Assembly: GCA_902629695.1 (NCBI GenBank)
Contig: CACORY010000005.1
Coordinates: 1-64,000, forward strand
DNA length: 64,000 nucleotides
Source: an uncultured Pelagibacteraceae bacterium
GTDB taxonomy: Bacteria > Pseudomonadota > Alphaproteobacteria > Pelagibacterales > Pelagibacteraceae
Reading direction: 5' to 3'
How positions within the stretch are numbered: position 1 is the stretch's first letter; every line of letters begins with the position of its first letter. Shown here piece by piece: positions 2,093 through 25,635 of the stretch. The translations under genes were made by a program, and so were the position numbers. The notes under the pieces were generated by a model. The model saw only the letters and a program-made list of their open reading frames with translations. It did not search any database and was not told where the DNA came from.

Positions 2093-2094
2093 TT

Positions 2095-4248
2095 ATGGAT
2101 TTTTTTAAGAAATACCCAAAAACATTTCAATGGTTATTTTTATTAGTTATATTTTTCGCATTATGTTTTGCAATTGAAGTTCCTGAAACATATAAATTTA
2201 TTCGAGGTCAAGCAGAATTTGTAAAAGATCCCAATCAGAGTAGCTATGTATTTTTAGGAAAAGAAGTAAGATATTACGCTTTTGATGTTTTCTGGAGATT
2301 ACCGCCACTTCTTGGATGGTTACCAATTTGGATAAATGACTCATTATTCTTCTTAATGAATGAGTGGATGCCGATTGAAGTTTGGAATGAGGACACTCAA
2401 GAATTTAAAAGTCGTCCAATAGTTTTACAAATTAGCAGAAATTTAACTGCTTTCATGACTTTTCTGATAGAATTAATTAGGGAGATTTTGTTAGGTGGTC
2501 TTGAAACTATTGTTGCCTTTACTAGTTGGGATTGGATAGATAAAAATCCATGGGCTGAACTACCAGGATTGCCCTGGACTATTGTTGCAGCAGGTGCAGC
2601 ATTACTTTCATATAAGCTTAGCGGAAAAGGTTTAGCTTTGTTTGCAGGTTTAACTATGATTTACATTTCAGTATTTGGTCAATGGAAACCATCAATGCAA
2701 ACTCTTTCATTTATATTAGTTGCTGCCCCGTTATCATTTATTTTTGGATTAGGATTAGGCATTGCTGCTTTCAAAAGTAAACGTGTCGAGAAAGCTTTAT
2801 ACCCAATATTATTAGTGATGCAGACAATGCCACAATACGCAGTTTTAGTTCCTGCGTTGGTTCTTTTTGGAGTAGGTGACCATGCTGCGGTAATTATAAC
2901 TATGGTTGTAGCTATACCACCAATGATCTTATTAACATTGCTAGGTTTAAGAGCGGTGCCGCCAGAAGTTATTGAAGCTGGAAGAATGAGTGGATGTAAT
3001 AATTGGCAACTAATGTTTAAAGTATTAATTCCAACTGCTAGAAGAGATATATTAATTGGCGTAAACCAGGTAATAATGGTGTGCTTCTCTATGGCAGTTA
3101 TATCTGCTTTTATTGGAGCAAAAGGTTTGGGATTTAATTTATTATTAGCATTAAACCAATTAAATATTGGGTTAGCTCTTGAAGCAGGATTGTGCATTAG
3201 TTTAATTGCAATTCTATTAGACAAGATGTCTTTAGCATGGGCAAATAAACAAACAGATTATTTTGGAAATCTTACATTCTACCAAAGAAATAAAAATCTT
3301 CTATTTTTTGGTGTTATTTTTGTGATTGGAATAATACTTTCATATATTGGAACTTTTTTGTTTAAAGACACTTTTAATTACCTATTTGAAATTCCACACA
3401 ATAAAGGAATATCCACTGCTGATTTTTGGAATAAAGGCGTAGATTGGATTTTTGAAACTTTTTTTGTTTACATTAAAGCATTTAATACCTGGTTAATTCA
3501 AGATGTGCTTCAGCCAATGAGAGCCTTGTATTTAAGAATGCCTGCAATTGCGACTATAGTTTTAGTTGTAGGCGCAGGATACTTAATTGGTGGTGTGCGT
3601 TCAGCCCTAGTAGTTTGTGGTTTAACATTATTTATTGCATTAAGTCCTTGGTGGGACAGAGCATTAGTAACTACTTACATGGCAACTTTTGGTGTAATTG
3701 TATCTTGCGCAATTGGATTTACAGTAGGAACTTTATGTTTTCAAAATAAACATTCAGCTAATTTTATGTTAGGTGTGTGTGATATTTTTCAAACATTTCC
3801 TTCTTTTGTTTATTTAATTCCAGTTATGATGTTATTTGGTATAACCGATACCTCTGTGCTGATAGCAGTCATAGTTTATGCAACGATACCTGCAACCAGA
3901 TATACTATTGAAGGACTAAGAAGTGTTCCAGCTGGTTTGCATGATGCAGCAACTATGTCGGGTGTAAATAAATTTCAAAGATTAACCAAAATAGAATTTC
4001 CTTTAGCATTTCCACATATGATGCTTGGTATAAATCAAACAATTGTATTTGCTTTGTTTATGGTGATTATTGGAGCATTTATTGGTACTGAGGATTTGGG
4101 CCAATATATTCTTAAAGCTTTATCAGATAAAAAAGGTGCAGGAATTGGATTGACACTAGGTATCTGTGTAGCTTTTATAGCTTTAATATTTGATAATTTA
4201 ATTAGAGCTTATGTTCAAAAAAGAAAAAAACACTTAGGTATTGATTAA
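2095..4248 (+). CDS. proW: Fused two-module glycine betaine permease (ProW)
   Basis: This 717-residue inner-membrane permease contains two complete ProW-like modules in one chain. The first lies around residues 170-370 and the second around 500-710. Each ends in an EAA-type coupling loop: VIEAGRMSGCNNW...IPTARRD in the first, and LHDAATMSGVNKFQ...FPLAFPH in the second. A long linker with extra transmembrane helices separates them. Usual ProW is about 350 residues and works as a homodimer, so this is a covalent heterodimer, an arrangement known from alphaproteobacterial homologues. It starts 2 bases after proV and ends facing the convergent tmm gene 7 bases away. Confidence 0.93.
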   Translation: MDFFKKYPKTFQWLFLLVIFFALCFAIEVPETYKFIRGQAEFVKDPNQSSYVFLGKEVRYYAFDVFWRLPPLLGWLPIWINDSLFFLMNEWMPIEVWNEDTQEFKSRPIVLQISRNLTAFMTFLIELIREILLGGLETIVAFTSWDWIDKNPWAELPGLPWTIVAAGAALLSYKLSGKGLALFAGLTMIYISVFGQWKPSMQTLSFILVAAPLSFIFGLGLGIAAFKSKRVEKALYPILLVMQTMPQYAVLVPALVLFGVGDHAAVIITMVVAIPPMILLTLLGLRAVPPEVIEAGRMSGCNNWQLMFKVLIPTARRDILIGVNQVIMVCFSMAVISAFIGAKGLGFNLLLALNQLNIGLALEAGLCISLIAILLDKMSLAWANKQTDYFGNLTFYQRNKNLLFFGVIFVIGIILSYIGTFLFKDTFNYLFEIPHNKGISTADFWNKGVDWIFETFFVYIKAFNTWLIQDVLQPMRALYLRMPAIATIVLVVGAGYLIGGVRSALVVCGLTLFIALSPWWDRALVTTYMATFGVIVSCAIGFTVGTLCFQNKHSANFMLGVCDIFQTFPSFVYLIPVMMLFGITDTSVLIAVIVYATIPATRYTIEGLRSVPAGLHDAATMSGVNKFQRLTKIEFPLAFPHMMLGINQTIVFALFMVIIGAFIGTEDLGQYILKALSDKKGAGIGLTLGICVAFIALIFDNLIRAYVQKRKKHLGID

Positions 4249-4255
4249 TTTAATT

Positions 4256-5587
4256 TTATTTATCTAAAAAAGTTTTTGATGAGTCATCCATTGCCGTTGC
4301 CCATGGTGTGTGGTGAATTGGTGCAACAGAACCAGTTACAGGAGATGAAAAAGATTTATTTCTATAGGTTAATATATCTTCAACTTTATGATGCTCCCAT
4401 TCTTTAAAATGCTTTCTAATTAGTTCAAAATCTATTTTTGGATAATCTGACATTTCATGAAGTTCTTTAGTATATTCAGTTTGGAAATCAATCATTTGAT
4501 CTGGATTTTCTAATTTTTCTTCCATCACGACCCATTTTTTAATATCACTTTCAATTTCTTTATCATTTGGAATTTTAATTTTTTTCATTATCACATCTCT
4601 TGCATACCAAGCCTGACAGTCAAACATATTAAATGTATGAAACTGATCTTGCATACCAAGATATAAAAGTTTGTGATTATCTTGCCAGACAACACCTTTG
4701 TATAATTTTGGTGGATAAAGCCTGTTTCTAGTTTTTAATTGTAAATTTTCCTCTAAAAAAGGAAAATGATGAAGATAACCAGTGCATAAAATTACGACAT
4801 CAGCTTCTTGTTCTGTACCATCTTTAAAAATTGCTTTCTTACCTTCTAATCTATCAAGGTAGTGAACTTCTTTCATACCTTTTGGCCATTTAAATCCCAT
4901 TGGATTATGTCTATATCCAATAGTTACACTTTTTGCCCCGTACTTATTACATTGAAGTGCCACGTCTTCTGCAGAATAGCTACTTCCTAAAACAATTACA
5001 TTTTTATTCCTAAATTCCTCTGCATCTCTGAAGTCATGGGAATGCATAATTCTTCCAGGAAAGGAATTCATTCCATCATATTCTGGAATGAAAGGAACTG
5101 AAAAATGCCCAGTAGATACTACCACGAAATCAAAATTATCTTTTAATACTTTATCGTTAACTTTATCTTGATAACTAACTTCGAATTTATCATTTTTATA
5201 AATTGTATTTACTACCCTTGTATTGAACTTGATTTTACTTTTCAATTTTCCTTTGCTTACTCTTCCAATGATATAGTCATATAAGACTGCTCTAGGAGGA
5301 AAAGATGGAATAGGTTTTCCAAAATGTTCATCAAACGAATAATCTGCAAATTCTAAACACTCTTTTGGTCCATTAGACCAAAGATATCTGTACATACTAT
5401 TGTGTACTGGATCTCCATATTGATCAGAACCAGTTCTCCAATTATAGTTCCATAATCCTCCCCAATCTTCTTGCTTTTCAAAACAAACTATTTCTGGGAT
5501 CTTCTCGCCATTTTTTTCTGCTAACTCAAACGCTCTGAGCATAGACAGTCCACATGGCCCAGCTCCTATAATTGCTACTTTAGTCAT
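4256..5587 (-). CDS. tmm: Trimethylamine monooxygenase (FMO family)
   Basis: This is a flavin monooxygenase that oxidises trimethylamine to TMAO with NADPH and O2. The FAD motif GAGPCG is at residues 8-13, the FMO fingerprint FxGxxxHxxxF at 176-186, the NADPH motif GSSYSA at 201-206 and a CTGY motif further on. Length (443) and the STGHFSVP segment fit bacterial Tmm better than Baeyer-Villiger enzymes. It converges on proVW, in keeping with methylated amine use. The 5' side faces gpsA across about 145 bases that should hold both promoters. Dimethylamine, DMS or other small nucleophiles are possible alternative substrates. Confidence 0.9.
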   Translation of the reverse strand: MTKVAIIGAGPCGLSMLRAFELAEKNGEKIPEIVCFEKQEDWGGLWNYNWRTGSDQYGDPVHNSMYRYLWSNGPKECLEFADYSFDEHFGKPIPSFPPRAVLYDYIIGRVSKGKLKSKIKFNTRVVNTIYKNDKFEVSYQDKVNDKVLKDNFDFVVVSTGHFSVPFIPEYDGMNSFPGRIMHSHDFRDAEEFRNKNVIVLGSSYSAEDVALQCNKYGAKSVTIGYRHNPMGFKWPKGMKEVHYLDRLEGKKAIFKDGTEQEADVVILCTGYLHHFPFLEENLQLKTRNRLYPPKLYKGVVWQDNHKLLYLGMQDQFHTFNMFDCQAWYARDVIMKKIKIPNDKEIESDIKKWVVMEEKLENPDQMIDFQTEYTKELHEMSDYPKIDFELIRKHFKEWEHHKVEDILTYRNKSFSSPVTGSVAPIHHTPWATAMDDSSKTFLDK

Positions 5588-8499: not shown

Positions 8500-9756
8500 A
8501 TGCAAAAATATTCAATATTTAGCTTAATAAAAAACGCTTTTTCTGATCATAAAAAATGGGATTTAGCTTGGAAGGATCCAGCGCCTAAAAAAGAGTACGA
8601 TGTCGTGATTATTGGAGGCGGCGGCCATGGTCTTGCAACTGCTTATTATCTTGCAAAAGAACATAAAATTACAAATGTTGCTGTAATTGAGAAGGGTTGG
8701 ATTGGAGGTGGAAATATCGGAAGGAACACTACAATTATAAGATCAAATTTTATGTATGATGATAATGCAAGATTTAACGAGTTTGGAATGAATTTATGGA
8801 GAAACATGAGCCAAGAATTAAACTTCAACGTAATGTTTTCACCAAGAGGAATAATAAATTTAGCTCATTCAGATGCACAAATGAATGCTTATGCTCGAAG
8901 AGGAAATTCAATGAGACTAAATGGGATCGATGCAGTTTTACTTAATAGGGAAGAAGTTAAAAAAATAATACCAATGGCAGATTTTTCAGATGATGTAAGA
9001 TACCCAATATTTGGAGGGTTGGCTCAACCAAGTGCTGGTACAGCAAGACATGATGCAGTTGCATGGGGTTATGCTCGTCAATCCGACTCTATGGGAGTAG
9101 ATATAATTCAAAATTGTGAAGTCACTGGTTTCGATGTGTCTGGGGGTAAGATTACAGGAGTAAGAACATCAAGAGGTGATATTAAAACAAAAAAAATTGG
9201 TCTTTGTGTTGCTGGTAGCACAAATGTATTAGCTGAAAAGCTTAATATGACACTTCCAATTGAAACTCATTTGCTTCAAGCTTGTGTTTCTGAACCAGTC
9301 AAACCAGTATTAGATGGAGTTGTAACTTTTGGTGCTGGACATTTTTATATAAGTCAATCTGATAAAGGTGAGATGGTTATGGGTGGAGATCTAGATGGAT
9401 ATAATAGTTATGCACAAAAAGGAAATCTTCCAACCATACAACACGTATTAACAGGGGGAGTTGCATTATTTCCATTTTTGAGTCGATTAAAAATGTTAAG
9501 GACTTGGGGAGGAATTATGGATATGTCAATGGATGGCTCACCAATTATTGATAAAACTCATATAGATGGATTATATTTAAATTGTGGTTGGTGTTATGGA
9601 GGTTTTAAATCTGTTCCATCTTCTGGTTGGACATTTGCTCATACTATTGCGCAAGATAGAGTTCATGAATTAAATGAAGGATTTAGTCTAAATAGATTTT
9701 CTAAGGGTTACTTGTTAGATGAGAAGGGTCTTGGAACAAAAACTTGGATTTCATAA
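8500..9756 (+). CDS. soxB: Sarcosine oxidase beta subunit
   Basis: This is the 418-residue beta subunit of heterotetrameric sarcosine oxidase, which binds FAD and the covalent FMN and oxidises sarcosine to glycine. The N-terminal SIFSL and DPAPK segments are typical for SoxB, followed by the dinucleotide motif VIIGGGGHGLATAYYLA at about 36-52. His184 in TARHDAV sits where the family attaches FMN. The first gene of soxBDAG, it ends directly at the soxD start. Length is standard (about 405-420). Confidence 0.95.
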   Translation: MQKYSIFSLIKNAFSDHKKWDLAWKDPAPKKEYDVVIIGGGGHGLATAYYLAKEHKITNVAVIEKGWIGGGNIGRNTTIIRSNFMYDDNARFNEFGMNLWRNMSQELNFNVMFSPRGIINLAHSDAQMNAYARRGNSMRLNGIDAVLLNREEVKKIIPMADFSDDVRYPIFGGLAQPSAGTARHDAVAWGYARQSDSMGVDIIQNCEVTGFDVSGGKITGVRTSRGDIKTKKIGLCVAGSTNVLAEKLNMTLPIETHLLQACVSEPVKPVLDGVVTFGAGHFYISQSDKGEMVMGGDLDGYNSYAQKGNLPTIQHVLTGGVALFPFLSRLKMLRTWGGIMDMSMDGSPIIDKTHIDGLYLNCGWCYGGFKSVPSSGWTFAHTIAQDRVHELNEGFSLNRFSKGYLLDEKGLGTKTWIS

Positions 9757-10023
9757 ATGTTAAATATTAAGTGTCCTTATTGTGGGGACAGGTCTCAAAA
9801 AGAATTTGCCTATGGAGGTGATGGAACAATTACCAGACCAAAACTTAATCAAGAAATAAGTGACGAAGAATGGGATAATTTTGTTTATCTAAGAAAAAGC
9901 CCGAGAGGAAAACACATTGAATTGTGGCATCATATTGCTGGATGCAGACAATGGTTTAAAGTTGAGAGAGATACAACTACTCACGAAATTTTTAAAACTT
10001 TTAAACCAGAGGAAGAATTTTGA
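9757..10023 (+). CDS. soxD: Sarcosine oxidase delta subunit
   Basis: This is the small zinc-binding subunit, 88 residues. Cys6 and Cys9 (CPYCG) plus His59 and Cys63 (HHIAGC) match the usual three-Cys/one-His zinc site of the delta subunit. It starts immediately after the soxB stop and overlaps soxA by four bases (ATGATG type junction), so the four genes should be translated together. It has no enzymatic role of its own but supports the heterotetramer. Confidence 0.93.
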   Translation: MLNIKCPYCGDRSQKEFAYGGDGTITRPKLNQEISDEEWDNFVYLRKSPRGKHIELWHHIAGCRQWFKVERDTTTHEIFKTFKPEEEF

Positions 10024-13019
10024 TGTCGCAAAATTTTAGATTAAATACTGGTGGCTTAATAAATAGAGATAAACCTATTGAATTTAAATTTAATGGAAAG
10101 AAATATATCGGTTATGAGGGTGATACGCTAGCTTCAGCACTACTTGCCAATGGCATACATTTAATTGGACGAAGTTTTAAATATCATCGTCCAAGAGGGT
10201 TTTTTGGTGCAGGAGTTGATGAACCAAATGCAAAAATGCAAGTTGAGATTAACGGTTGCTCAGAACCAAATATTAACGCAACTGAAATAGAACTAGTAAA
10301 CGGTTTATCAGCAACTAGTCAAAATTGTTGGCCATCAGTAAATTTTGATATTGGTGCAATAAATAATTTCTTAAATCGATTTTTTCCTGCTGGTTTTTAT
10401 TACAAAACTTTTATGTGGCCCAAAAGTTTTTGGTACAGAGTGTATGAACCTTTTATTCGAAAAGCAGCGGGATTAGGAATTGCTTCTCTAGAAAAAGATA
10501 AAGAGAGATATGAGCATAAATACGAATATTGTGATTTATTAGTTACTGGCTCTGGACCTGCTGGTTTAGCAAGTGCTTATGCGGCCGCAAATAATGGAGC
10601 AAAAGTAATATTAGCAGAGGATAAACCTAGATATGGAGGGACGCTTTTAACAGATGATGTTACAATAGATAACTTATCTGGAAAAGATTGGTCAGAAAAA
10701 ATTATATCCGAATTAAAAGAGATGCCTAATGTTATTGTTAAAAATAGATCTCAAGTTTTTGGATACTATGATCATAACATGATGGTAATGTTTGAAAGGA
10801 CGGGAGATCATTTAGAAAAAAAAACTAAGTACACACCAAGACAAAGACTTTGGTACATAAGAGCTAAAGAAGTATTGCTATCAACAGGATCTATTGAAAG
10901 ACCTATTGTTTTTGGAAATAATGATACACCTGGAGTTTTTCTCTCAGCTGCTGCAAAAGAATATATGAAAGTTTATGGTGTTCTAATTGGCAAAAAACCA
11001 ATTATTTTTACTAATAACGATAGTGGCTATGAAACAGCTATTGAGTTTAAAAAGAATGGTGTCGATCCAATAGTTTTAGATACTAGAGATGATCAAAACT
11101 CTGAGTTAATTAACGAAGCTAAGGATTTAGACATTAAGATCAAGTTTTCTTATGCAGTGATAGTTGCTCATGGATATAAAAAAGTAAAATCAGCAACAAT
11201 TGGGAAATTAAATAAAGATAAGATAGATTTTGAAAATACAGAACAAATTGATTGCGACTCTATTTGTGTATCTGGATTTTGGACACCAACAGTCCATTTA
11301 GCATCCCAATCAGGCAATAAACTAAAATTTAACGACTCAATAGATGCTTTTGTACCTGACAAATCAAAACAAAATGAACATTCTTTAGGTGCTGCTAATG
11401 GAACATTTACATTACAAGATACTTTAAAAAACAGTTTTAATACCGGGTCAGAAGTTTCTAAAAACATAACTAAAAAAGATGAAAAAATACAAATTCCTAA
11501 TACGAATGAACGAAAATATAGCACTCATGATAAATTTTGGTGCTCTCCACTTCCCAAAGGTAAAAATTATAAAAGATTTGTAGATTTTCAAAATGATGTA
11601 GCTGTTTCTGATATAGAGGTTGCTTTACGAGAGGGGTATAGATCAATCGAACATGTTAAGAGATATACAACACTTGGAATGGCAACGGATCAAGGAAGAA
11701 CGAGTAATTTAAACGGATTACAATTGGTTGCAAATGTTGAAAAAAAAATTGTTCCTCAAGTAGGTCATACTACATTTAGACCCCCTTTTACACCAGTTAC
11801 TATTGGTACAATAGTTGGACGAGAGGTAGGAAAAGAATATATGCCTACTAGAAAAACACCAATGCACCATTGGCATGAAAAAAATAATGCAGTGTGGGTA
11901 GATGCCGGTGCTTGGAAAAGACCAAGATATTACAAAAGAGGAAATGAAAATTTATTTGAGGCATCAAAAAGAGAAGCAAAAAATGTTCGGGAACACGTAG
12001 GTGTTTGTGATGTAACAACTTTAGGGAAAATTGATATTAAAGGTCCAGACGCTGCAGAGTTTTTAAATAGAGTTTACACAAACGCATGGTTAAAACTTCC
12101 AGTAGGTAAAGCACGATATGGAGTAATGCTCAGGGAAGATGGAATTGTGATGGATGATGGGACAACAACCAGAATTTCAGAAAATCATTATCATATGACA
12201 ACCACTACTGCACAGGCTGCAAACGTATTATCGCATTTAGAATATTATCTGCAAATTGTTTGGCCAGAATTAAATGTTAATGTTGTTTCAACAACCGAAC
12301 AATGGGCTGGTGCGGCGATTGCAGGACCTAAATCAAGAGATTTGTTAGCAAGAATTTTCCCTAAAATTGATGTTAGCAACGAGGCACTTCCTTTTATGGG
12401 ATATGTAGAGGGAGATTTATTTGGTGTCAAAGCAAGAATTTTTAGAATTTCTTTTTCAGGTGAGCTCGCTTACGAAATAAATGTTGAGTCTGATTTTGGA
12501 TTATTTATGTGGGAAAAAATAATTGAAATTGGTGAGGAATTTAATATTCAACCTTATGGTACGGAAGCATTGTCGACACTTAGAATAGAAATGGGTCATG
12601 TAGCTGGACCAGAACTAGATGGAAGAACTATACCTTATGATGTTTCGTTAGAAGGTTTAGTATCAAAGAAAAAAGATTTCATTGGAAAGAGATCTTTAGC
12701 TAAAGAAGCATTTAATAAAGCGAATAGACAAAAAATTGTTGGTTTAGTCCCATTGGATAGGAAATCAAGTATTCCAGAGGGATCTCATTTAGTAGAAAAT
12801 AAAAATGCGAAACTTCCAAATCCTAAACTTGGTCATGTTTCTTCATCTTGTTGGAGTGTTGAGAACAATAATCCTTTTTCTCTTGCAATATTAAAAGATG
12901 GAAAAAATATGATAGGAAAAAAGCTTTTTGCGGTCTCTCCACTTAAAAATACTTCCATTGAAGTGGAAGTCATGTCCTCACATTATGTAGACCATGAAGG
13001 AAAGAGAGTAAGATCGTGA
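10020..13019 (+). CDS. soxA: Sarcosine oxidase alpha subunit
   Basis: This is a 999-residue subunit with three parts. The N-terminal Fer2-like/NAD region contains SFKYHRPRGFFGAG. The central pyridine-nucleotide oxidoreductase domain has TGSGPAGLASAYAA near residue 178. The C-terminal GcvT domain, from about residue 600, binds THF and turns the sarcosine methyl into 5,10-methylene-THF. It binds NAD and channels the imine product from the beta subunit. It overlaps soxD and soxG by four bases each. Length is normal for the family (about 960-1010). Confidence 0.95.
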   Translation: MMSQNFRLNTGGLINRDKPIEFKFNGKKYIGYEGDTLASALLANGIHLIGRSFKYHRPRGFFGAGVDEPNAKMQVEINGCSEPNINATEIELVNGLSATSQNCWPSVNFDIGAINNFLNRFFPAGFYYKTFMWPKSFWYRVYEPFIRKAAGLGIASLEKDKERYEHKYEYCDLLVTGSGPAGLASAYAAANNGAKVILAEDKPRYGGTLLTDDVTIDNLSGKDWSEKIISELKEMPNVIVKNRSQVFGYYDHNMMVMFERTGDHLEKKTKYTPRQRLWYIRAKEVLLSTGSIERPIVFGNNDTPGVFLSAAAKEYMKVYGVLIGKKPIIFTNNDSGYETAIEFKKNGVDPIVLDTRDDQNSELINEAKDLDIKIKFSYAVIVAHGYKKVKSATIGKLNKDKIDFENTEQIDCDSICVSGFWTPTVHLASQSGNKLKFNDSIDAFVPDKSKQNEHSLGAANGTFTLQDTLKNSFNTGSEVSKNITKKDEKIQIPNTNERKYSTHDKFWCSPLPKGKNYKRFVDFQNDVAVSDIEVALREGYRSIEHVKRYTTLGMATDQGRTSNLNGLQLVANVEKKIVPQVGHTTFRPPFTPVTIGTIVGREVGKEYMPTRKTPMHHWHEKNNAVWVDAGAWKRPRYYKRGNENLFEASKREAKNVREHVGVCDVTTLGKIDIKGPDAAEFLNRVYTNAWLKLPVGKARYGVMLREDGIVMDDGTTTRISENHYHMTTTTAQAANVLSHLEYYLQIVWPELNVNVVSTTEQWAGAAIAGPKSRDLLARIFPKIDVSNEALPFMGYVEGDLFGVKARIFRISFSGELAYEINVESDFGLFMWEKIIEIGEEFNIQPYGTEALSTLRIEMGHVAGPELDGRTIPYDVSLEGLVSKKKDFIGKRSLAKEAFNKANRQKIVGLVPLDRKSSIPEGSHLVENKNAKLPNPKLGHVSSSCWSVENNNPFSLAILKDGKNMIGKKLFAVSPLKNTSIEVEVMSSHYVDHEGKRVRS

Positions 13020-13600
13020 AGAAAATTTCTTCTTTAGATAATGTGCATCAAAATGGAAAATTTGGTGATTTTGAAAATAAAAATGAGAAAGACTTATTAA
13101 AGATTTCAGAATTGAAGAATGTTTTAATATTCCAATTAGTTCAATATAAAAATTCAAGTTCAGATATCTCAAATATAAAAGTTGACGACCTAAAATTACC
13201 TTCGACTTTAAAATCCTCTTCAAATTCAGATACTAGAATTTTATGGACGGGACCAAAGAATTGGATAGTTATATCTTCTAAAACAGATTTACTTTTAAAA
13301 GATGGAAAACAATTTGATGAAAGTAATTTTGCAATCACAGATTTATCGCATTCAAGAACAATAATTGAAATTCAAGGTGATCTTGTTAATGAAGTTTTAA
13401 AAAAAGGATGTCCTATAAATATTGATAAATTTAATGAGGGTGATTGCACAAATTCAATTTATAACGGAATATCAATTACGATTGATTTCATTTCTAACAA
13501 TCCAAAAAAAGCAAGAATTTTCGGATTAAGAAGCTTTGGAGAGTCTTTGCATCATTCAATAACAGATGGCTCGTTAGAATTTGGTTATCAAAGTAATTAG
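13016..13600 (+). CDS. soxG: Sarcosine oxidase gamma subunit
   Basis: This 194-residue protein is the last gene of soxBDAG, overlapping soxA by four bases (GTGA junction at the soxA stop). The sequence is weakly conserved, as is normal for gamma. Useful landmarks are LWTGPKNWIVIS in the middle and ITDLSHSRTIIEIQG, corresponding to the GPDEWL and DLSxSR segments of SoxG/GcvT-like folds. It completes the heterotetramer and helps bind THF. It converges on the next gene with a 3-base gap. Confidence 0.88.
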   Translation: MKKISSLDNVHQNGKFGDFENKNEKDLLKISELKNVLIFQLVQYKNSSSDISNIKVDDLKLPSTLKSSSNSDTRILWTGPKNWIVISSKTDLLLKDGKQFDESNFAITDLSHSRTIIEIQGDLVNEVLKKGCPINIDKFNEGDCTNSIYNGISITIDFISNNPKKARIFGLRSFGESLHHSITDGSLEFGYQSN

Positions 13601-14471: not shown

Positions 14472-14882
14472 TTAATCTATAATATTAAGTATTATTAATT
14501 TGTTTTGTTTTGTCTCTTTACACCATAATTCATAACTTTCACACATTCTCCACAAATGATCGAAGGCTCTTTGAGAAATTTCAAGAGGATAATGGCTTTT
14601 AGCATAATATAATTCAGGATATTGAATTAGTTGCTTAATTGATAAATCTTTTTGAATATGAAGTAATCTTAGAGTTTCTTCAGGCACCTTTTTTTTTGAT
14701 ACCTTTTCAATTAATTCATCATGGAATTTCCCACTACTTATATCATTGTAGGTTGTTGTTCCAATAAAGTTTTCAATTGCGTTGATTGTTGTCAGGTCAG
14801 GATTTTTTTTCTTAATCTCACAAACTTTTGAGTAAATTGCTTCTGCAACCAGTAATACATAAGGCTTTTCTTTAGATGACAT
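14472..14882 (-). CDS. Hypothetical protein next to racemase
   Basis: This is a 136-residue soluble protein of unknown family, predicted mostly helical, without signal peptide or membrane segment. It contains a YxLWCKE segment near the C-terminus and two cysteines near residues 113 and 120. Its start overlaps the stop of the upstream racemase by one base (TAATG), so translation is probably coupled. I recognise no catalytic motif. Confidence 0.6.
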   Translation of the reverse strand: MSSKEKPYVLLVAEAIYSKVCEIKKKNPDLTTINAIENFIGTTTYNDISSGKFHDELIEKVSKKKVPEETLRLLHIQKDLSIKQLIQYPELYYAKSHYPLEISQRAFDHLWRMCESYELWCKETKQNKLIILNIID

Positions 14883-15631
14883 TATCTATTTTGATATTTC
14901 CTCATAGCAGCGTTAGCTAAAATCAAATTTGGGTCTAAAAATATTTTTGATGATTTTATTGTCTTAAATGGTTTATAGGCAAAAATAGCAATAGGTAGTT
15001 CTGTACATCCAAGAATAATTTTTTTACATTTTTTTTTAATTAAATAATTAATTGCTGGTCTAATAGCTTTGCTCGCTAATTTCACTCTTCCCATTTTTAC
15101 AAGCCTGATAGCTTTGTTTACTGATTTACTTTGAATAGAATTATTTGGAAACACTAGATTATAATTTTTATCAAAAAACTTATTATAAATACCTGTTTTT
15201 AAGGTTCCTTCCGTAGCAAGCAAACCAATGGAGGAATTTTTTCTACATTTTTTTTTAGCATGCACAAAAACTTCTTTAGGCATATTTACTATCGGTAAGT
15301 TAATTCGTTTTTTTAAGTCATCATACCAATAGTGAGCTGTGTTACATGGTATGACTATAAATTTACAATTACTTTTTTTTAAAAGATTACAACCATTAAT
15401 TAAACTTTTTAAAACAGATGAATATTTTTGTTTAGTTTTTTTATTACTTATTTTGTTTGATAGCTTACCGGTATGGATACCAATCGACTCAGGTCTACCA
15501 GGAATATTTGATTTGTTATAAAGCATAAACAAAGGGTAATCTTGATCGATCTTACCTCTATATAAAATTGCCAGCTTATTGCAAAAATCTAAACCTGCCT
15601 GGGTACCCATTCCACCTAAAATACCAATCAT
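14882..15631 (-). CDS. Aspartate/glutamate racemase family protein
   Basis: This 249-residue protein is of the PLP-independent Asp/Glu racemase superfamily. The start MIGILGGMGTQAGLDF is the RacX/aspartate racemase type. The two catalytic cysteines sit in IPCNTAHYWYDDL and LGCTELPIAI. It probably interconverts L- and D-aspartate or a related acid, but hydantoin racemases and maleate isomerases share the fold. It is followed by the small unknown gene and an exporter on the same strand. Confidence 0.82.
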   Translation of the reverse strand: MIGILGGMGTQAGLDFCNKLAILYRGKIDQDYPLFMLYNKSNIPGRPESIGIHTGKLSNKISNKKTKQKYSSVLKSLINGCNLLKKSNCKFIVIPCNTAHYWYDDLKKRINLPIVNMPKEVFVHAKKKCRKNSSIGLLATEGTLKTGIYNKFFDKNYNLVFPNNSIQSKSVNKAIRLVKMGRVKLASKAIRPAINYLIKKKCKKIILGCTELPIAIFAYKPFKTIKSSKIFLDPNLILANAAMRKYQNR

Positions 15632-18175: not shown

Positions 18176-19141
18176 ATGAAATTTAAAATTGATAATCTTC
18201 AATACTGTAATTGGACCAGAGAAGTTTTTAAAATAAATAGAGAGGCAGGGCTTGATGCAGTACATGTTACAATAGTTTACCATGAGGATTTTAATGAGTT
18301 AGGTGAACAGATTAAGAAATGGCAAAAATTATTTACTGAAAATTCAGATTTAATATTTCTTGGTAAAGACTTTAAAGATATTGAAAAAGCAAATAATGAA
18401 AAAAAAACTGCTATTTTTTTTGGTTTCCAAAACTGCTCTCCTATTGAAGATGATATTAGTTTAGTCGAAAAAGTCCACGAATTAGGTTGTAGGTTTATGC
18501 AATTAACTTATAACAATCAATCTTTATTGGCGACAGGTTGTTATGAGAAAGTTGATAGCGGAGTTACAAATTTTGGAAGGGAAGTAATAAAAGAGATGAA
18601 CAGAGTTGGAGTTGTAGTTGATATGTCTCATTCAGCAGAAAAGAGTACTTTAGATGCAATTGATTTGAGTGAAAAACCAATTGCGATTACTCACGCTAAT
18701 CCGTCATTTTGGCATGCAGCTAAAAGAAATAAATCCTCAGAATTATTAAAAGTACTGAGTGATAGTGGTGGCATTTTAGGATTATCACTTTATCCTCATC
18801 ATTTAAAAGATAATACAAATTGTACAATTGAAAGTTTTTGTGAAATGGTCGCTAGAACAGCAGATATAATGAATATTAAAAATATTGGAATTGGTTCTGA
18901 CCTTTGTTTAAATCAGCCAGATGAAGTTGTTAAATGGATGAGAAATGGGACTTGGTCAAAGAGCACAAATTACGGAGAAGGCACAAGGAATAAACCAGGT
19001 TTTCCAAAACAACCAGAATGGTTTGAGGATGCAAGAGGTTTTGCAAATTTAGAAAGAGGATTAAGCAAGATAGGTTTTCAAGAAATGGAAATTGACGGAA
19101 TACTTGGAAATAATTGGTATAATTTTTATAAAACTATTTAA
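18176..19141 (+). CDS. M19 dipeptidase homologue with a degraded metal site
   Basis: This 321-residue TIM-barrel protein belongs to the renal (membrane) dipeptidase family M19. VVDMSHS near residue 147, ITHANPSFWHAAKRN near 168 and GIGSDLC near 240 keep two His ligands and the catalytic Asp of the family. The N-terminal HxD metal motif (normally DGHxD) is replaced by DNLQYCNW, and the bridging Glu (usual xGxEG) reads FGFQNC, a Gln. Several ligands of the di-zinc centre are therefore missing. A mononuclear hydrolase or a non-peptidase role is more likely than a classical dipeptidase (inference). It leads a four-gene cluster. Confidence 0.8.
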   Translation: MKFKIDNLQYCNWTREVFKINREAGLDAVHVTIVYHEDFNELGEQIKKWQKLFTENSDLIFLGKDFKDIEKANNEKKTAIFFGFQNCSPIEDDISLVEKVHELGCRFMQLTYNNQSLLATGCYEKVDSGVTNFGREVIKEMNRVGVVVDMSHSAEKSTLDAIDLSEKPIAITHANPSFWHAAKRNKSSELLKVLSDSGGILGLSLYPHHLKDNTNCTIESFCEMVARTADIMNIKNIGIGSDLCLNQPDEVVKWMRNGTWSKSTNYGEGTRNKPGFPKQPEWFEDARGFANLERGLSKIGFQEMEIDGILGNNWYNFYKTI

Positions 19142-19143
19142 GT

Positions 19144-20805
19144 ATGGAAGTAGAATTAAGAGATCCTAATGTAATTATGAAACTTTCAAGGCTGGGCTCT
19201 TTCCATCAGTCTAAATTATCATTTTTGAGAAGTTTTTTAAATGAATTTAAAGATTGGGAATATAAAAGAGACTTATTTGATTTAGATAAAAAAGGATTTG
19301 GTGTTGTAGTTTATTCTTTTAAAAAAAAGGATAGAGTTTACTCTTTAATATGTTTTGCAAATGAAATACAGGATGGTGAAAGATCAGATAGAGTAATTGC
19401 TACAAAATGGGATGCAGCATTTACTTTATATGACGGCGTTCCAAATAAAGATGATATTGATAGATTAAAAAAAGAGGTACCTAAACAAGAAGTTGGTAGA
19501 TTATCTTATAAAGAGTTAACATTATCGAGAGCAAATAAATCAGTTAGGGTTTTTGATCATGTTGTAAAAAATTTAAGTAATGGACAACAACCAAATTTAG
19601 ATTTATTAGAAAAAGTTGGTTATCTTTATAGAACAACTGCTGTTTATGGTTCAGGTAAATTTGGACTTGCAGATCGTTTTAGAATTAAAAAAAGAGATGA
19701 AATAAACGGTCCATTTAGATTAGAAATGATGTTAGTTTATCTGGTAAGACAATTTACGTTTGACCAAGTCAATCATGTAGCAAAAAATAAAAATCCAAAA
19801 AAAGCTGTCGAATTAGATACTAAGATCTGTAAAAATCTTGGCATTGGAAATTCAACAGGCTTAGGAATGGCTCCCTTTATAGTTAATCACCCCACTTTGT
19901 TAAATAATTGGATCATGAGTAGAGAAAAAGCATTAAAAAAAATTAGAGAAATAAAAAAAGTAGATATTCATGACAGTAATTTATTTAAAACATGCTTAAA
20001 GAATTCAATTAAAAATATAACTAGTTGGAATACTGAAAGTGAATATCAATTAAAAAAAATAAAAGATCTTTTAAGTGATGTACAAAAATTTTTAGATTTC
20101 GTTGAAAAAAAATTTGATTTTGAAACTGATTATCCATTCAATCAATTGTATCTTTGGGTTGAGAAGAAAACTTGCGAGGAATGCATTGAGTATATTGTTT
20201 CTTTAATGATGGAGCCGTATAATGAAATTATAGAACCGTTAGTAAAACAAATGAGCTCTGAAGAAGATAATTATTTTACTATACCAACAAACAGAAACGT
20301 TGAAGAATTAAAGTTGATAATTGAAACTAAATATTCAAATATTTTATCTATTAATTTTGAAAAAAAACAAAATTTTAAAAAATTTTGGTTTATTTCAAAA
20401 AATAAAGAAGAGCCAAGAATTGCTGACAGATTTAAGGAAGAAGGATCTGATTTAGAACAACCTTTAGCAATCGCTAGAGATATAAAAAAATTATATGAAA
20501 AGTTATTAATAATAAAAAAAGATATGAAAATTGATGAGTTTTTAAGTGAGAATTCAGATTTAAGACATGTAGTTAGAAGAGCTTTTATAATTGAAAATTT
20601 TCCTTATTCCGAAATACAAGATAATACAATTAGTGAAAATACAATTCCAATAGATATGTTAAGACTGAAATTATCTTTTTTTGGCGCCCTAAAATTTGAT
20701 CCACGTTCTGATAAATGGCTGAGAATATGTATGTTTCAAGGTGCACCATTGCCAAGTGAATTAAAGAATTATGATGATCATTGGGTTTATAGTGCAAACT
20801 CTTAA
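19144..20805 (+). CDS. Uncharacterised 553-residue protein of the M19/DUF3726 cluster
   Basis: This is a large soluble protein with no family I can name. It has no signal peptide or membrane helix. Visible features are a Phe/Lys-rich N-terminus, a conserved-looking segment VGYLYRTTAVYGSGKFGLADR near 158-178, then mixed helical regions with KKTCEECIEY near 345. The end WLRICMFQGAPLPSELK suggests a compact C-terminal domain. It starts 2 bases after the M19 gene and ends 3 bases before the DUF3726 gene, so a shared pathway is probable. Its function is unknown. Confidence 0.6.
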   Translation: MEVELRDPNVIMKLSRLGSFHQSKLSFLRSFLNEFKDWEYKRDLFDLDKKGFGVVVYSFKKKDRVYSLICFANEIQDGERSDRVIATKWDAAFTLYDGVPNKDDIDRLKKEVPKQEVGRLSYKELTLSRANKSVRVFDHVVKNLSNGQQPNLDLLEKVGYLYRTTAVYGSGKFGLADRFRIKKRDEINGPFRLEMMLVYLVRQFTFDQVNHVAKNKNPKKAVELDTKICKNLGIGNSTGLGMAPFIVNHPTLLNNWIMSREKALKKIREIKKVDIHDSNLFKTCLKNSIKNITSWNTESEYQLKKIKDLLSDVQKFLDFVEKKFDFETDYPFNQLYLWVEKKTCEECIEYIVSLMMEPYNEIIEPLVKQMSSEEDNYFTIPTNRNVEELKLIIETKYSNILSINFEKKQNFKKFWFISKNKEEPRIADRFKEEGSDLEQPLAIARDIKKLYEKLLIIKKDMKIDEFLSENSDLRHVVRRAFIIENFPYSEIQDNTISENTIPIDMLRLKLSFFGALKFDPRSDKWLRICMFQGAPLPSELKNYDDHWVYSANS

Positions 20806-20808
20806 ACT

Positions 20809-21420
20809 ATGAAGTCTCTTAGTGAAATAGAAACAACATCAAAAAGAGCATCTAGAGCAGCAGGGTTTTCGTGGGGAGTTTCTGAAGAAGTTGGCAAATG
20901 TGTGAGATTATTAGAACTTTTTGGATTACCAGGTATTGTAAATCTAAATTCTTATTTAAAAGAAAAAAACATAAACGATTTTGAGAATTTAAAATTAATT
21001 GGGAATGAAAATAAACCTAAGAATAATTCATTTTGCCCAATTTATTTAGGAGTAAGTTTAATAGATCAAATAAGAACCGTTGAGTCATTTAAGAGTTGTT
21101 CGTTTATAAATATTGCTTATCCAATATTATTTATTCCTTTTTTAAGTCGAGCTTCTGAAGTTATAGGTAAAAAAATTTTATTTATTTTTGATAATAATCA
21201 ATTTTTATTAAATTTTAATTTATGCATCTCTTCAAATCTTACTAAAAAACAATATCCAAATTTAGCAAAAAAAATTAAGATTAATTTTTTAGAAAACACA
21301 GATAATTTTAGTGAATTAGAATGGAAAAGTCTTTATAAACTTTCAGAAGAGACTTTTGTAGAAGAAACAGAAAGTTTAAAACAAGGTGCAGCAGGAGCTG
21401 GCTTAAATGACAATGATTAA
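20809..21420 (+). CDS. DUF3726 family protein
   Basis: This 203-residue protein has the N-terminal signature of DUF3726: SLSEIETTSKRASRAAGFSWG, then EEVGKCVRLLELFG. The end is Gly/Ala-rich (KQGAAGAGLNDND). No biochemical role is established for this family to my knowledge. Its position directly behind the degraded dipeptidase homologue and the 553-residue unknown suggests a common process. The following cysteine microprotein overlaps its end by 14 bases. Confidence 0.75.
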   Translation: MKSLSEIETTSKRASRAAGFSWGVSEEVGKCVRLLELFGLPGIVNLNSYLKEKNINDFENLKLIGNENKPKNNSFCPIYLGVSLIDQIRTVESFKSCSFINIAYPILFIPFLSRASEVIGKKILFIFDNNQFLLNFNLCISSNLTKKQYPNLAKKIKINFLENTDNFSELEWKSLYKLSEETFVEETESLKQGAAGAGLNDND

Positions 21421-21574
21421 AGTTGAAGATTTAAAAGAAAAAGATTTAAAAGAATTGGATGACATATGTGATGAATGTAAAAAAGAAGATGAAAGTGTAT
21501 CTCAAAATCTAATTCTCACAGGTTTTAAAATATGTAAATCCTGTCGAGTATCTAAGACAATATTTCCTTTTTAA
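21407..21574 (+). CDS. Four-cysteine microprotein, zinc-ribbon-like
   Basis: This is a small gene of 55 residues. Translation gives two CxxC pairs, CDEC near residues 21-24 and CKSC near 43-46, on an otherwise charged chain (EDLKEKDLKELDD). The spacing suits a zinc ribbon or rubredoxin-like knuckle. It begins inside the DUF3726 gene (ATGACAATG, start at 21407 or 21413) and its stop overlaps the convergent YIP1 gene by four bases. Coupled translation with DUF3726 argues that it is real. Confidence 0.62.
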   Translation: MTMIKVEDLKEKDLKELDDICDECKKEDESVSQNLILTGFKICKSCRVSKTIFPF

Positions 21575-22262: not shown

Positions 22263-23621
22263 TTAACCTTTAACAACTTCTCTAGTATTTGCGTTGTAAG
22301 ACTCTTTAAAGGGTATATCTACCACCTCGGCATCAACAGGTTTTCCTGGGGCGTCAGAGTATTTTTCGGGTAAATGTATTTTATATTTTGATCCAACTTT
22401 TCCTTTTGGAAAACCATTTGTATTTAAAGTACCATCAAAAGGAATGTAGCCCATAGCTATATTCTTTTTCTTTTCAGGATGATACCATGGAGAGGTTACA
22501 AATCCTACTGGGTCACCACCACTTTCATTTGATATTAACCAAAAATCTGGTGCATAATCTTCAATAGGTTTACCACCTAGTTCAAAACCAACTAATTGTA
22601 ATTTATAGGGTTTTTTTCCAGCTTTCAAATCGGCACCCATTTTTTCCAAAGCTTTTTTTCCAACATAATCAGCTTTTTTATTCCATTCACCTTTTCCGGA
22701 TAATGAAACTTGATAACCTAAATTACATTGAAAAGGATTGTGTTGTTGATCCATATCTTGTCCCCAAGAAAGAATCCCAGCTTGAATCCTTCTGTGGTGC
22801 GCAGGCGCAATAACCATAAGATTGTGTTTTTTTCCAGCTTCAAGAACCGCATTCCACATATCTTCTGCATATAGTGTTGCATTTCTTAAATAAATTTCAT
22901 AGCCGGCTTCACCGGAGAAACCAGATTGAGAAATTACACAACTTCTTCCACCAACTTTTACTTCTGCCAAACCATAAAAAGGCATATTGTCAAAATCAAC
23001 TTGATCTCCACATAAATCTTTCATTAGAGCTTTTGATTTAGGACCTTGAATTTGAACCGGACACGCGTCAATTTCTTCAACTGTGCAATTGAATCTTCCA
23101 TCGGCATTAACGCCTTGTAAATACATTCCAATATCGGAATCTGATAAAGAAAACCAAAACTCATCCTTTGAAATTCTCAAAAGAATTGGATCATTTAAAA
23201 CTCCTCCATATGCATTACATAAAATTACATACCTTGCTCTCATAGGTGAAATTTTTGTTGCATCTCTTGTTATAACGTAATCGACAAATTTTTCTGCATC
23301 TGGTCCTTTAACTTGTATTTGTCTTTCAACAGCTACATTCCACATTGTAACATGGTTTACTATTGCATCGTACTCAACCATCGCTCCACCATCCTCAGGT
23401 TTAACGTAACCTCTTGGATGATAAATACGGTTATAAACAGTTGCTCTCCAGCAACCTGCTTGCATTGATAAATGCCAATAAGGTGATTTTCTTACTCTTG
23501 TTGAAATTAACATTTCAACTTTTGTTGGTCCGCTTTGTCTTAAATTATATGGTACTTTCCTATCTGATTGATCAACGGTAGTAACATGTTTTAGTTTAGT
23601 ATAGTCAAATTCTTTAGACAT
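22263..23621 (-). CDS. GcvT/DmdA-like THF-dependent methyltransferase
   Basis: This protein of about 452 residues is related to the glycine-cleavage T protein and to the DMSP demethylase DmdA. Typical GcvT segments are WHLSMQAGCWRATVYNRIYHPRG, VQIQGPKSKALMKDL, SGFSGEAGYEIYL and AGILSWGQDMDQQHNPFQCNLG. SAR11 DmdA is about 370 residues with a different N-terminus, so this is a longer paralogue. I chose the ATG at 23621 because AAGGAG sits 7 bases before it. The ATG at 23627 lies only one base after the ribosome site. It overlaps the MetF-like gene by 8 bases, so it probably passes a substrate methyl to THF. The substrate is not known. Confidence 0.8.
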   Translation of the reverse strand: MSKEFDYTKLKHVTTVDQSDRKVPYNLRQSGPTKVEMLISTRVRKSPYWHLSMQAGCWRATVYNRIYHPRGYVKPEDGGAMVEYDAIVNHVTMWNVAVERQIQVKGPDAEKFVDYVITRDATKISPMRARYVILCNAYGGVLNDPILLRISKDEFWFSLSDSDIGMYLQGVNADGRFNCTVEEIDACPVQIQGPKSKALMKDLCGDQVDFDNMPFYGLAEVKVGGRSCVISQSGFSGEAGYEIYLRNATLYAEDMWNAVLEAGKKHNLMVIAPAHHRRIQAGILSWGQDMDQQHNPFQCNLGYQVSLSGKGEWNKKADYVGKKALEKMGADLKAGKKPYKLQLVGFELGGKPIEDYAPDFWLISNESGGDPVGFVTSPWYHPEKKKNIAMGYIPFDGTLNTNGFPKGKVGSKYKIHLPEKYSDAPGKPVDAEVVDIPFKESYNANTREVVKG

Positions 23622-24387
23622 AACCATTCTCCTTCAACCACTTGTTAGTTTCCTTCAAGCCGCCGAATGTATAAATGTGGAAGAAATCAGTATGCGATTT
23701 AACTTTCCCAATTAATTCATTAGGGTCTTTAGGTTTCAATAAATCTAAAGCCTTACTAAAGTTAGATTTAAGAAAGTTTAAGGAATTTTTTGCTCCAACA
23801 ATATTAGCAAATTTTATTAAGCTAGATATTTTTAGAGGGCCAGTAATTCCCACATGTACTGGTACGCTTTGTTTAGAGATAAAATCTATAATTGGCTGGG
23901 GATCTAATAACCATTGAGTTACTATATAGTCAGCGTAAGGCTTTTTATCAATCATAGCTTTTTCTAAATCTGAGTCGGATATATCAGGACTCCCCTCTGG
24001 GTGTCCAGCAATTCCTATTGTCATCTTCTCAAAATAACCAGTTTCTAAAAGTTGAAAAGAACTATCAAATTTTCCCATTGGTTCTCTCCCACCACCAATT
24101 ATTAGAACTTGTTTAACACCTCCGTCTTTACATCTAGAGATATAATCTTTAAGTTGTTCCTCATTTTGCATCGATCGTGCAGGGAAATGGGGCACTGGAT
24201 TGAAACCTTTTTTTACCAACTCAACTGCCTGTTGAGCAGTCTCTTTATAATCTCCACCTGGTAGCATTGTGATATATACATCACTTACCGGTGGGACTGT
24301 ATCAAGATCAGTTTGCGGTCCAATTTCTAAAGAAAATTTCATGTCTTTATCATTATATTTTTTAAAAAAGCTGTCAAAGAAATTCAT
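23614..24387 (-). CDS. Methylenetetrahydrofolate reductase-like protein
   Basis: This 257-residue TIM-barrel flavoprotein is of the MetF family. It has SLEIGPQTDL near the start, PHFPARS, IAGHPEGSPDIS and an IVTQWLLDPQP segment (E. coli has ITQFFFD). I start it at the ATG at 24387. The longer frame to 24456 uses TTG and runs into the divergent oxygenase start. It is translationally coupled to the GcvT-like gene. Together they would move a methyl as 5-methyl-THF and re-oxidise it to methylene-THF, as MetF partners do in aryl-O-demethylation systems (inference). Confidence 0.82.
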   Translation of the reverse strand: MNFFDSFFKKYNDKDMKFSLEIGPQTDLDTVPPVSDVYITMLPGGDYKETAQQAVELVKKGFNPVPHFPARSMQNEEQLKDYISRCKDGGVKQVLIIGGGREPMGKFDSSFQLLETGYFEKMTIGIAGHPEGSPDISDSDLEKAMIDKKPYADYIVTQWLLDPQPIIDFISKQSVPVHVGITGPLKISSLIKFANIVGAKNSLNFLKSNFSKALDLLKPKDPNELIGKVKSHTDFFHIYTFGGLKETNKWLKENGYV

Positions 24388-24420
24388 ATATATATGTGGC
24401 GAAATTAGTTGCCAAAATAT

Positions 24421-25635
24421 ATGCCCATGATAATTTTTTTTGTGATCCAGAATCAAAAAAATTTACCTTTATCTGAAATACTAAATATTGATAAACTTTA
24501 TAATGTAGACAAGCCCATAGAAGTAGCCAACGGTTTACCTAATGAGTGTTATACGAATAAAGATTACTTAGCCTTTGAGAGAGAAAAGATATTTTTTAAT
24601 AAATGGACGGTTATCGGTGTTGGTAATTCAATACCAAATCCTGGAGACGCTAAACCTTACAATCTATTAGGAATTCCTTTGATAATGATTAGGGATAAGA
24701 AAAAAAAAATTAGGGTTTTTCACAATGTATGTAGCCACAGAGGATTTAAATTATTAGATAATAGCTGCAATTTAAAAAATGTTATCAGATGTCCATATCA
24801 TTCCTGGTCTTATGACTTTAGGGGTAATCTTATTGCAACTCCTCATATCGGCGGACTAAACAATCATCAATCTGAAAAATTTGATAAAACAAAAAGTAAT
24901 TTAAAAGAAGTGAGAACTAGAATTTGGATGGATATTATATTTGTGAATATAAATTCAAATGAAATTAATTTTGATGATTATATGAAACCACTTGAGCAAA
25001 GATGGGCAAAATTTATTACTCGCGATGATCAAAAATCAATCGTTCACTCAAATGATTATGGTTATTTCAATTTAGATGTAAAATGTAATTGGAAATTTGC
25101 TATAGAAAATTATTGTGAAAGTTATCATTTGCCTACAATACATCCAGAGCTTAATAAAGTTTCAAATATAGACGATCATTATCATATACAAAGTCTGCCT
25201 AATAGATTTGCTGGTCAAGGAAGTAAAAAATACGAACAATTAATTAAAGGTAACAAAAAATTTAAAAATTTTCCTCACTGGGATAAAAATCTGGTTAAAA
25301 ATTCAGAATATATAGCTTTATTTCCTAATGTGATGATAGGCTTACACATAGATCATTTTTATATTTTTTGGTTGGAACCAATTACGATTAATAAAACTAA
25401 AGAGCATATGCAAATGTATTATGTTGGTAATGAAAGTGCCAATGGTGAAGAATTAAAAGAATTGAGAAAAGAAAATGTAAGATTTTGGAAAGATGTTATG
25501 TTGGAAGATGTAAGTGCTATAGAGGGAATGCAAGAAGGGAGAAATTCACCTGTTTACAATGGTGGAAATTTTTCACCAGTCATGGATCAACCAACTCATC
25601 AATTCCATAAATGGATAGCAAATAGTTTATTATGA
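24421..25635 (+). CDS. Rieske non-heme iron oxygenase alpha subunit
   Basis: This protein of about 404 residues resembles glycine betaine/choline/carnitine monooxygenases. The Rieske [2Fe-2S] ligands are CSH...CPYH (CSHRGFKLL and RCPYHSW). The catalytic domain has NWKFAIENYCESYHLPTIHPEL with the two iron His ligands. It probably hydroxylates an N-methyl or C-H bond of a small cation and needs a reductase, which I do not see nearby. The start is uncertain: TTG 24409, ATG 24421 or ATG 24427. It is divergent from the MetF/GcvT-like pair and leads a tightly packed plus-strand string. Confidence 0.85.
   Translation: MPMIIFFVIQNQKNLPLSEILNIDKLYNVDKPIEVANGLPNECYTNKDYLAFEREKIFFNKWTVIGVGNSIPNPGDAKPYNLLGIPLIMIRDKKKKIRVFHNVCSHRGFKLLDNSCNLKNVIRCPYHSWSYDFRGNLIATPHIGGLNNHQSEKFDKTKSNLKEVRTRIWMDIIFVNINSNEINFDDYMKPLEQRWAKFITRDDQKSIVHSNDYGYFNLDVKCNWKFAIENYCESYHLPTIHPELNKVSNIDDHYHIQSLPNRFAGQGSKKYEQLIKGNKKFKNFPHWDKNLVKNSEYIALFPNVMIGLHIDHFYIFWLEPITINKTKEHMQMYYVGNESANGEELKELRKENVRFWKDVMLEDVSAIEGMQEGRNSPVYNGGNFSPVMDQPTHQFHKWIANSLL

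Follow-up and report, generated by a model that had tools for sequence, protein, structure and literature searches.

What does a predicted dipeptidase of the M19 family do when it has kept just one half of the metal site typical of that family and is packed against genes of no assigned function? The locus raising this question lies in a 64,000-nucleotide stretch of DNA (the window) from an uncultured Pelagibacteraceae bacterium of the SAR11 group, whose source genome (G000; 964 kb) is 80% complete. Four genes follow one another on its forward strand: an M19 gene (18176-19141; 321 residues), encoding an amidohydrolase-fold protein of a half-site subfamily marked by a GxQN motif; the P553 gene (19144-20805; 553 residues), from a family without recognised relatives; a DUF3726 gene (20809-21420; 203 residues), encoding what appears to be a shrunken Ldh_2 fold without the SHG histidine; and the gene of a zinc-ribbon-like CxxC-CxxC microprotein (21407-21574; 55 residues). 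Judging from their distribution and neighbours, the first three genes (hereafter the triad), with P553 at their centre, very probably form the core of a module that breaks down an imported betaine. For the substrate I favor homarine (N-methylpicolinate), which would be converted to N-methylglutamate, with a probability of about 0.6.

P553 is carried by 18/60 SAR11-family genomes, 53/385 alphaproteobacterial genomes and 29/398 genomes of Pseudomonadota, these sets partly overlapping. M19 was counted at 400 bits or more, a threshold placed at a score gap after the scores had been seen. On this basis, 50 of the 385 alphaproteobacterial genomes have both M19 and P553, 3 have P553 only, 6 have M19 only and 326 have neither (Fisher p 3e-52, uncorrected for kinship). 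In the same genomes, M19 lies within 6 kb of 47 of the 55 P553 places, on the same strand in 46, and 12 of the 59 places with an M19 of this type have no P553 near. Of the 80 SAR11 loci that ranked highest in a search with P553, all 80 have M19, 79 have DUF3726 and 74 the microprotein (tblastn). Beyond SAR11, 47 contexts of ±5 kb were compared, some of them cut by contig ends; these are the 55 places minus 3 from SAR11 and 5 others, fragments among them. They contain M19 in 42 cases, DUF3726 in 38, an Ldh gene in 18, an aldehyde dehydrogenase (ALDH) in 17 and either of the latter two in 27, together with a BCCT transporter in 7, the binding protein of a betaine ATP-binding cassette (ABC) importer in 6 and a LysR regulator in 7.

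By this distribution, the conserved unit is one of three genes: M19, P553 and DUF3726. A previous interpretation, made from the letters of the window alone (the sequence-only reading), had described a four-gene unit and asked whether its members stay together. Its account of the packing, with gaps of 2 bases between M19 and P553 and 3 bases between P553 and DUF3726, then a 14-base overlap of DUF3726 with the microprotein gene, agrees exactly with the open reading frame (ORF) coordinates, and three of its four genes do form a conserved unit, M19 and P553 staying together at most places. The fourth gene, however, does not follow them: the microprotein occurs in 4/5 loci of the same genus and in 0/10 informative loci of other SAR11 genera, informative meaning that the locus includes the downstream stretch (an eleventh, L018, ends inside P553 and was left out). 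One of these ten loci (L017) has an unrelated CxxC ORF, upstream. On these counts, the microprotein is a SAR11-lineage addition to the three-gene unit.

The M19 protein belongs to its family without ambiguity, matching PF01244 with 239 bits (curated cut-off 26). The match begins at profile position 39, leaving unmatched the N-terminal part that bears the HxD motif, whose residues I take to be ligands of the first metal in di-zinc M19 dipeptidases. The motifs read in the protein are KIDNLQYCNW, GFQN, DMSHS, ITHAN and GSD. It was aligned to 3id7 and 1itq, membrane (renal) dipeptidases with which it shares family homology; the residue roles in 1itq, including E125 as the bridging Glu and the identity of the binding His, are assumed here. 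H152, H173, R184 and D242 fall on their counterparts, Q85 falls on the bridging Glu and Y112 on a His of 1itq. Unlike 1itq and 3id7, the window protein has the first-metal ligands, the bridging Glu and the binding His all replaced.

These replacements are widely shared. I surveyed 111 loci, 99 from the SAR11 family (two being the window's own copy) and 12 from plasmid clusters. Q85 and N86 are each present in 110/110 aligned loci and Y112 in 111/111, while the second-metal set is kept (H152 in 110/111; H173, R184 and D242 each in 111/111). The HxD motif is absent, with Leu at position 8 in 107/108 and Tyr at position 10 in 104/108 aligned loci (DNLQY in the window). The closest entry in the PDB is 2i5g (E 8e-56), labeled 'amidohydrolase' and presumably from P. 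aeruginosa, which also lacks HxD, has GFQN in place of GxE, and retains the His pair, RNKS and GTD; its subfamily differs in part, some members having no P553 nearby. GxQN is likewise found in 10/10 further alphaproteobacterial M19 loci, picked for having no P553 nearby. Because the same states recur in the survey, in 2i5g and in these ten loci, the altered metal site is, on the alignments, a trait of an M19 subfamily and no local break. The sequence-only reading had correctly noted the loss of the N-terminal HxD, the Gln at the bridging Glu and the retained C-terminal His and Asp residues; what it called a broken site is a shared subfamily state, already present in a solved structure. The papers listed for PA5396, PA5397 or renal dipeptidase name neither PA5396 nor PA5397.

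All four genes look to be under constraint. The ratio of nonsynonymous to synonymous substitution rates (dN/dS), measured against the relative L033, is ~0.07 for P553 and ~0.14 for DUF3726; against L034, dN is 0.069 and dS 1.71 for M19, and dN 0.132 and dS 1.73 for the microprotein, dS being near saturation in both. A decayed pseudogene at the M19 locus is ruled out by this constraint, together with the substitutions common to the homologues. Nothing in the window was found by Rfam at gathering thresholds, and promoter and terminator scans gave signals no higher than in shuffled sequence.

The DUF3726 protein matches PF12525 (E 4e-20; 72 bits, curated cut-off 22.1), and its predicted model has a predicted local distance difference test score (pLDDT) of 87. 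With this model, VIA retrieves 15 Ldh_2 entries at Z 8.8-10.6 (root-mean-square deviation 3.2-8.1, 155-185 residues aligned), the next entry being at Z 4.2. Foldseek gives a best E of 0.011, and its top 20 rows are all of the Ldh_2 family. The model therefore has the fold of Ldh_2 (PF02615: ureidoglycolate and sulfolactate dehydrogenases, delta1-piperideine-2-carboxylate reductase), in 203 residues against the 312-361 of Ldh_2 chains. No row is returned for the window protein against PF02615 at E <= 1; proteins at the same position in distant clusters give E values of 4.8e-9 (Natrinema), 0.005 (Variovorax) and 0.1 (S. meliloti), with none for Alloyangia, and the best score among them, 36.2 bits, is below the cut-off of 38.8. 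In an alignment with three full Ldh_2 proteins, the SHG motif is absent from 11/11 DUF3726-type proteins, and the cofactor stretch is gone, a part being left in the Natrinema relative only; I take the SHG His and this stretch to be functional motifs of Ldh_2. Given the fold match and the missing motifs, the likeliest view of DUF3726 is that of an inactive, truncated paralogue of Ldh_2, an enzyme also encoded by some of the operons. A literature search on DUF3726 found no paper.

P553 has no match at E <= 1 in Pfam, NCBIfam or PHROGs and none at E <= 5 among PDB sequences, its sole profile hit being insignificant (E 1.2). At least 580 relatives are present in genome contigs, and the best 80 in named genomes are from Pelagibacteraceae/Pelagibacterales. 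Its predicted model finds no convincing counterpart among PDB folds (Foldseek best E 0.53, VIA best Z 3.2), but its mean pLDDT is only 70, several conserved motifs are of low confidence, and the input alignment held SAR11 sequences only; a no-match result from such a model gives no evidence for a new fold. In Mesorhizobium sp. 131-2-1, a single reading frame encodes both P553 and DUF3726. Such a fusion is not a common feature, with 1 fused pair against 50 separate ones, and no pair detected in 10/61 loci.

Seven clusters on six named plasmids all have the order LysR-ALDH-M19-P553, interrupted in two of them by a BCCT gene after M19. Six of the seven list a DUF3726 gene, four an Ldh family oxidoreductase, and six an importer of either BCCT or glycine-betaine ABC type. 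The plasmid of Phaeobacter inhibens DSM 17395 has ALDH, M19, P553 and DUF3726 in two copies each; PGA1_RS18995 to RS19015 encode LysR, ALDH, M19, P553 and DUF3726. A Caballeronia cluster, unannotated and with its ORFs read by eye, resembles these. A second arrangement, IclR-P553-small protein-M19-ABC importer, is found in Alloyangia, Bosea and S. meliloti pSymB (the last from ORFs), the S. meliloti cluster having aminotransferase- and semialdehyde-dehydrogenase-like ALDH genes downstream, by eye; in Variovorax, genes of a tripartite transporter accompany the cluster. Loci L025 (S. meliloti pSymB), L027, L028 and L029 make up this second cluster family, with IclR regulators and either ABC importers of unstated type or tripartite-transporter genes, and it probably handles another amine substrate. 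In a haloarchaeon the order is ALDH-P553-Ldh_2-like-BCCT, with no M19 match in that stretch.

In the window, ProV/ProW-like ABC importer genes (1064-4248, forward strand; identified by eye) form a candidate betaine importer ~14 kb upstream of the triad. The product of 1064-2092 is 46-50% identical to ProV-like proteins that other SAR11 genera encode immediately before the triad; one of these proteins (L264) exceeds the proV subfamily cut-off. Eight loci of these other genera were read, seven of them chosen for an ALDH match close to P553 and the eighth being G002. Betaine ABC genes immediately precede the triad in four, and one gene intervenes in another. An ALDH 76-85% identical to G000:C7 (L120:4983-6416) directly follows the triad in 2/8, comes after one intervening gene in 1, and lies further along in 4; it was not seen in L265. 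Two SAR11 genomes of one genus have an agmatinase-family gene directly after DUF3726 (L260 5576-6538, L265 3023-3982), the family being inferred via a G000 relative.

In G000, this ALDH and an Ldh_2 gene (L118:5783-6778) sit on other contigs. The unlinked Ldh_2 orthologue (at least 79% identity) nevertheless tracks P553 across SAR11, being present in 13/18 genomes with P553 vs 2/42 others, and in 6/6 vs 0/21 when completeness is at least 90%. Semialdehyde-dehydrogenase-like ALDHs, matched in 58/60 genomes, are uninformative as a SAR11 signal. The window itself carries a soxB-like gene (8500-9756), a soxA-like gene (10020-13019) and a third gene, 'soxG' by position, within 8500-13600 on the forward strand, all of sarcosine oxidase (Sox) / N-methylglutamate dehydrogenase (Mgd) type, with TIGR01373 and TIGR01372 above cut-offs; they are candidates for a downstream step. 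Window-type SoxA is present in 15/18 SAR11 genomes with P553 vs 4/42 others. The sole P553-less genome among six same-genus relatives, G051, also lacks both this Ldh_2 and window-type SoxA.

A possible link to Mgd comes from Aliiroseovarius and Phaeobacter, whose operons lie next to soxBDAG and a regulator of AraC type. Their SoxA proteins are 86.6% identical to each other and, compared with the dmmA-bearing locus of Parasedimentitalea, where the gene is broken in the record, 78-86% identical in three pieces and 53-60% in two. The AraC-type regulators are ~50% identical to the regulator of that locus. The sox alpha gene in question, on Parasedimentitalea marina pW43C (L269 11524-14449), is spread over several frames in the record. 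This likeness of dmmA, regulator and SoxA suggests the dmm-tmaR-mgdABCD arrangement described for R. pomeroyi in PMC13390433, where Mgd is also reported to take part in homarine catabolism.

With homarine as substrate, a pathway can be sketched from gene families and positions, although each step assignment is tentative. P553, with DUF3726 as partner, would open the methylated ring, the dead Ldh_2 stub serving as a structural or substrate-holding subunit. The M19 half-site protein could then cleave a C-N bond in what ring opening yields, perhaps an N-formyl-N-methyl amide, by hydrolysis; the ALDH would oxidise the freed C5 aldehyde, the Ldh_2 enzyme would reduce the C=N bond to give N-methylglutamate, and the Mgd/Sox-type enzyme would release glutamate and a one-carbon unit. 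Without C6, the ring carbons C2-C5 and the carboxyl of homarine make up the skeleton of glutamate, so an N-methylglutamate intermediate fits this substrate. Two ALDHs from roseobacter/rhizobial clusters score best, below cut-offs, against 2,5-dioxovalerate/ketoglutarate-semialdehyde models, which fits the proposed C5 aldehyde. More speculatively, and doubtful at present, P553 might found a new enzyme class that opens N-methylpyridinium rings without a known oxygenase cofactor, in complex with the DUF3726 stub and the half-site M19, other transporters directing it to other amines in rhizobia and haloarchaea.

A homarine catabolic pathway has reportedly been described by Ferrer-Gonzalez et al. 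in 2026 (Nat Microbiol 11:1531; cited in PMC13390433). Its operon, reportedly of six genes (homABCDER), is said to occur in SAR11. The sequence-only reading had suspected an undescribed pathway, a view upheld only in part, since the neighbourhood fits homarine catabolism and a paper on it exists. That pathway and the present module would have in common the Mgd link and a betaine-type substrate; the window differs in having its ALDH and Ldh_2 unlinked and a microprotein added. In passages of PMC12817926, PMC9038784 and PMC9723723, homarine figures solely as a diatom metabolite.

Several observations weigh against homarine. The module contains no known ring-opening oxygenase, and the window has no ALDH beside the triad. 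Neither an ALDH nor an Ldh gene was seen in 20/47 of the non-SAR11 contexts. For the ALDH of SAR11 and those of the Natrinema and S. meliloti clusters, other ALDH models give the highest scores. An mgd-type operon adjoins the module in 2/7 named clusters. Window SoxA is 43-45% identical to mgd-type SoxA, much as the second copy in G000 is (41%), beside which no methylamine genes were seen by eye; the association of SoxA with P553 is weaker in genomes at least 90% complete (5/6 vs 2/21). Co-occurrence counts ignore kinship, and the match to the published operon is presumed. Finally, soil bacteria and a haloarchaeon also have relatives, which leaves room for other substrates. It is on this last point that the most serious competing explanation builds, namely that the same module, by similar chemistry, acts on trigonelline, on a betaine of proline or hydroxyproline, or on a series of N-methylated heterocycles, with the transporter next door setting the substrate. 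The diversity of transporters (BCCT, glycine-betaine-type ABC, ABC of unstated substrate, tripartite) and the soil and rhizosphere hosts agree with it, and a ketoglutarate-semialdehyde-like ALDH would suit hydroxyproline betaines too. I consider it rather unlikely, as the mgd-type neighbours point to N-methylglutamate, to which, by my own chemical reasoning, homarine leads better than trigonelline or proline betaine.

It is improbable that the triad merely assists the glycine betaine and methylamine one-carbon metabolism encoded around it in SAR11, for instance in handling a side product or cofactor. The window does have trimethylamine monooxygenase, Sox-type, dimethylglycine-dehydrogenase-like and GbcA-like genes, but the triad is found in just 18/60 SAR11-family genomes, and beyond SAR11 it may come with a regulator, a transporter and dehydrogenases of its own. 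An operon for peptide or amide hydrolysis, with M19 as a mono-metal dipeptidase assisted by P553 and DUF3726, would account for the Pfam match and for the retained His pair, Arg and Asp; it is very improbable, given that nearly all aligned homologues have other residues in place of HxD, the bridging Glu and the binding His, and that betaine importers and dehydrogenases make up most of the named cluster neighbours, although an ABC importer without assignment lies near one cluster. The same evidence agrees with the sequence-only reading, which had thought peptide degradation unlikely.

The wider window contains further genes of note. The trimethylamine monooxygenase (4256-5587, reverse strand) scores 743 bits against an NCBIfam equivalog cut-off of 675, which marks the region as a methylated-amine island. 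On the same strand, an amino-acid racemase (14472-15631) exceeds the asp_race cut-off and is under that of the cysteate racemase CuyB; its gene overlaps by one base that of a 136-residue protein without Pfam or NCBIfam matches. Region 22263-24456 (reverse strand) encodes a DmdA-like protein with a GcvT domain, far under the DmdA cut-off (231 bits against 410), adjoined by a 280-residue protein with no NCBIfam match at E <= 1e-15; the two have relatives in 78 and 67 of the 80 SAR11 loci, respectively. A RamB-like regulator (53317-55011, forward strand), below cut-off, has an apparent tandem copy of its N-terminal helix-turn-helix and is encoded 327 bases from isocitrate lyase. The protein encoded at 55316-55984 (forward strand) repeats at its N-terminus the 17-residue stretch KLRPSIKARIRKMGLKN, and has no NCBIfam match at E <= 1e-15.

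If the proposed function is correct, the triad would provide a DNA signature by which part of SAR11 (18/60 family genomes sampled) could be recognised as using a nitrogen-containing osmolyte of seawater. DUF3726 would be assigned to a fold, and P553 would remain as an enzymatic puzzle. The name 'membrane dipeptidase' would then also appear to be wrong for many of the genes that bear it.

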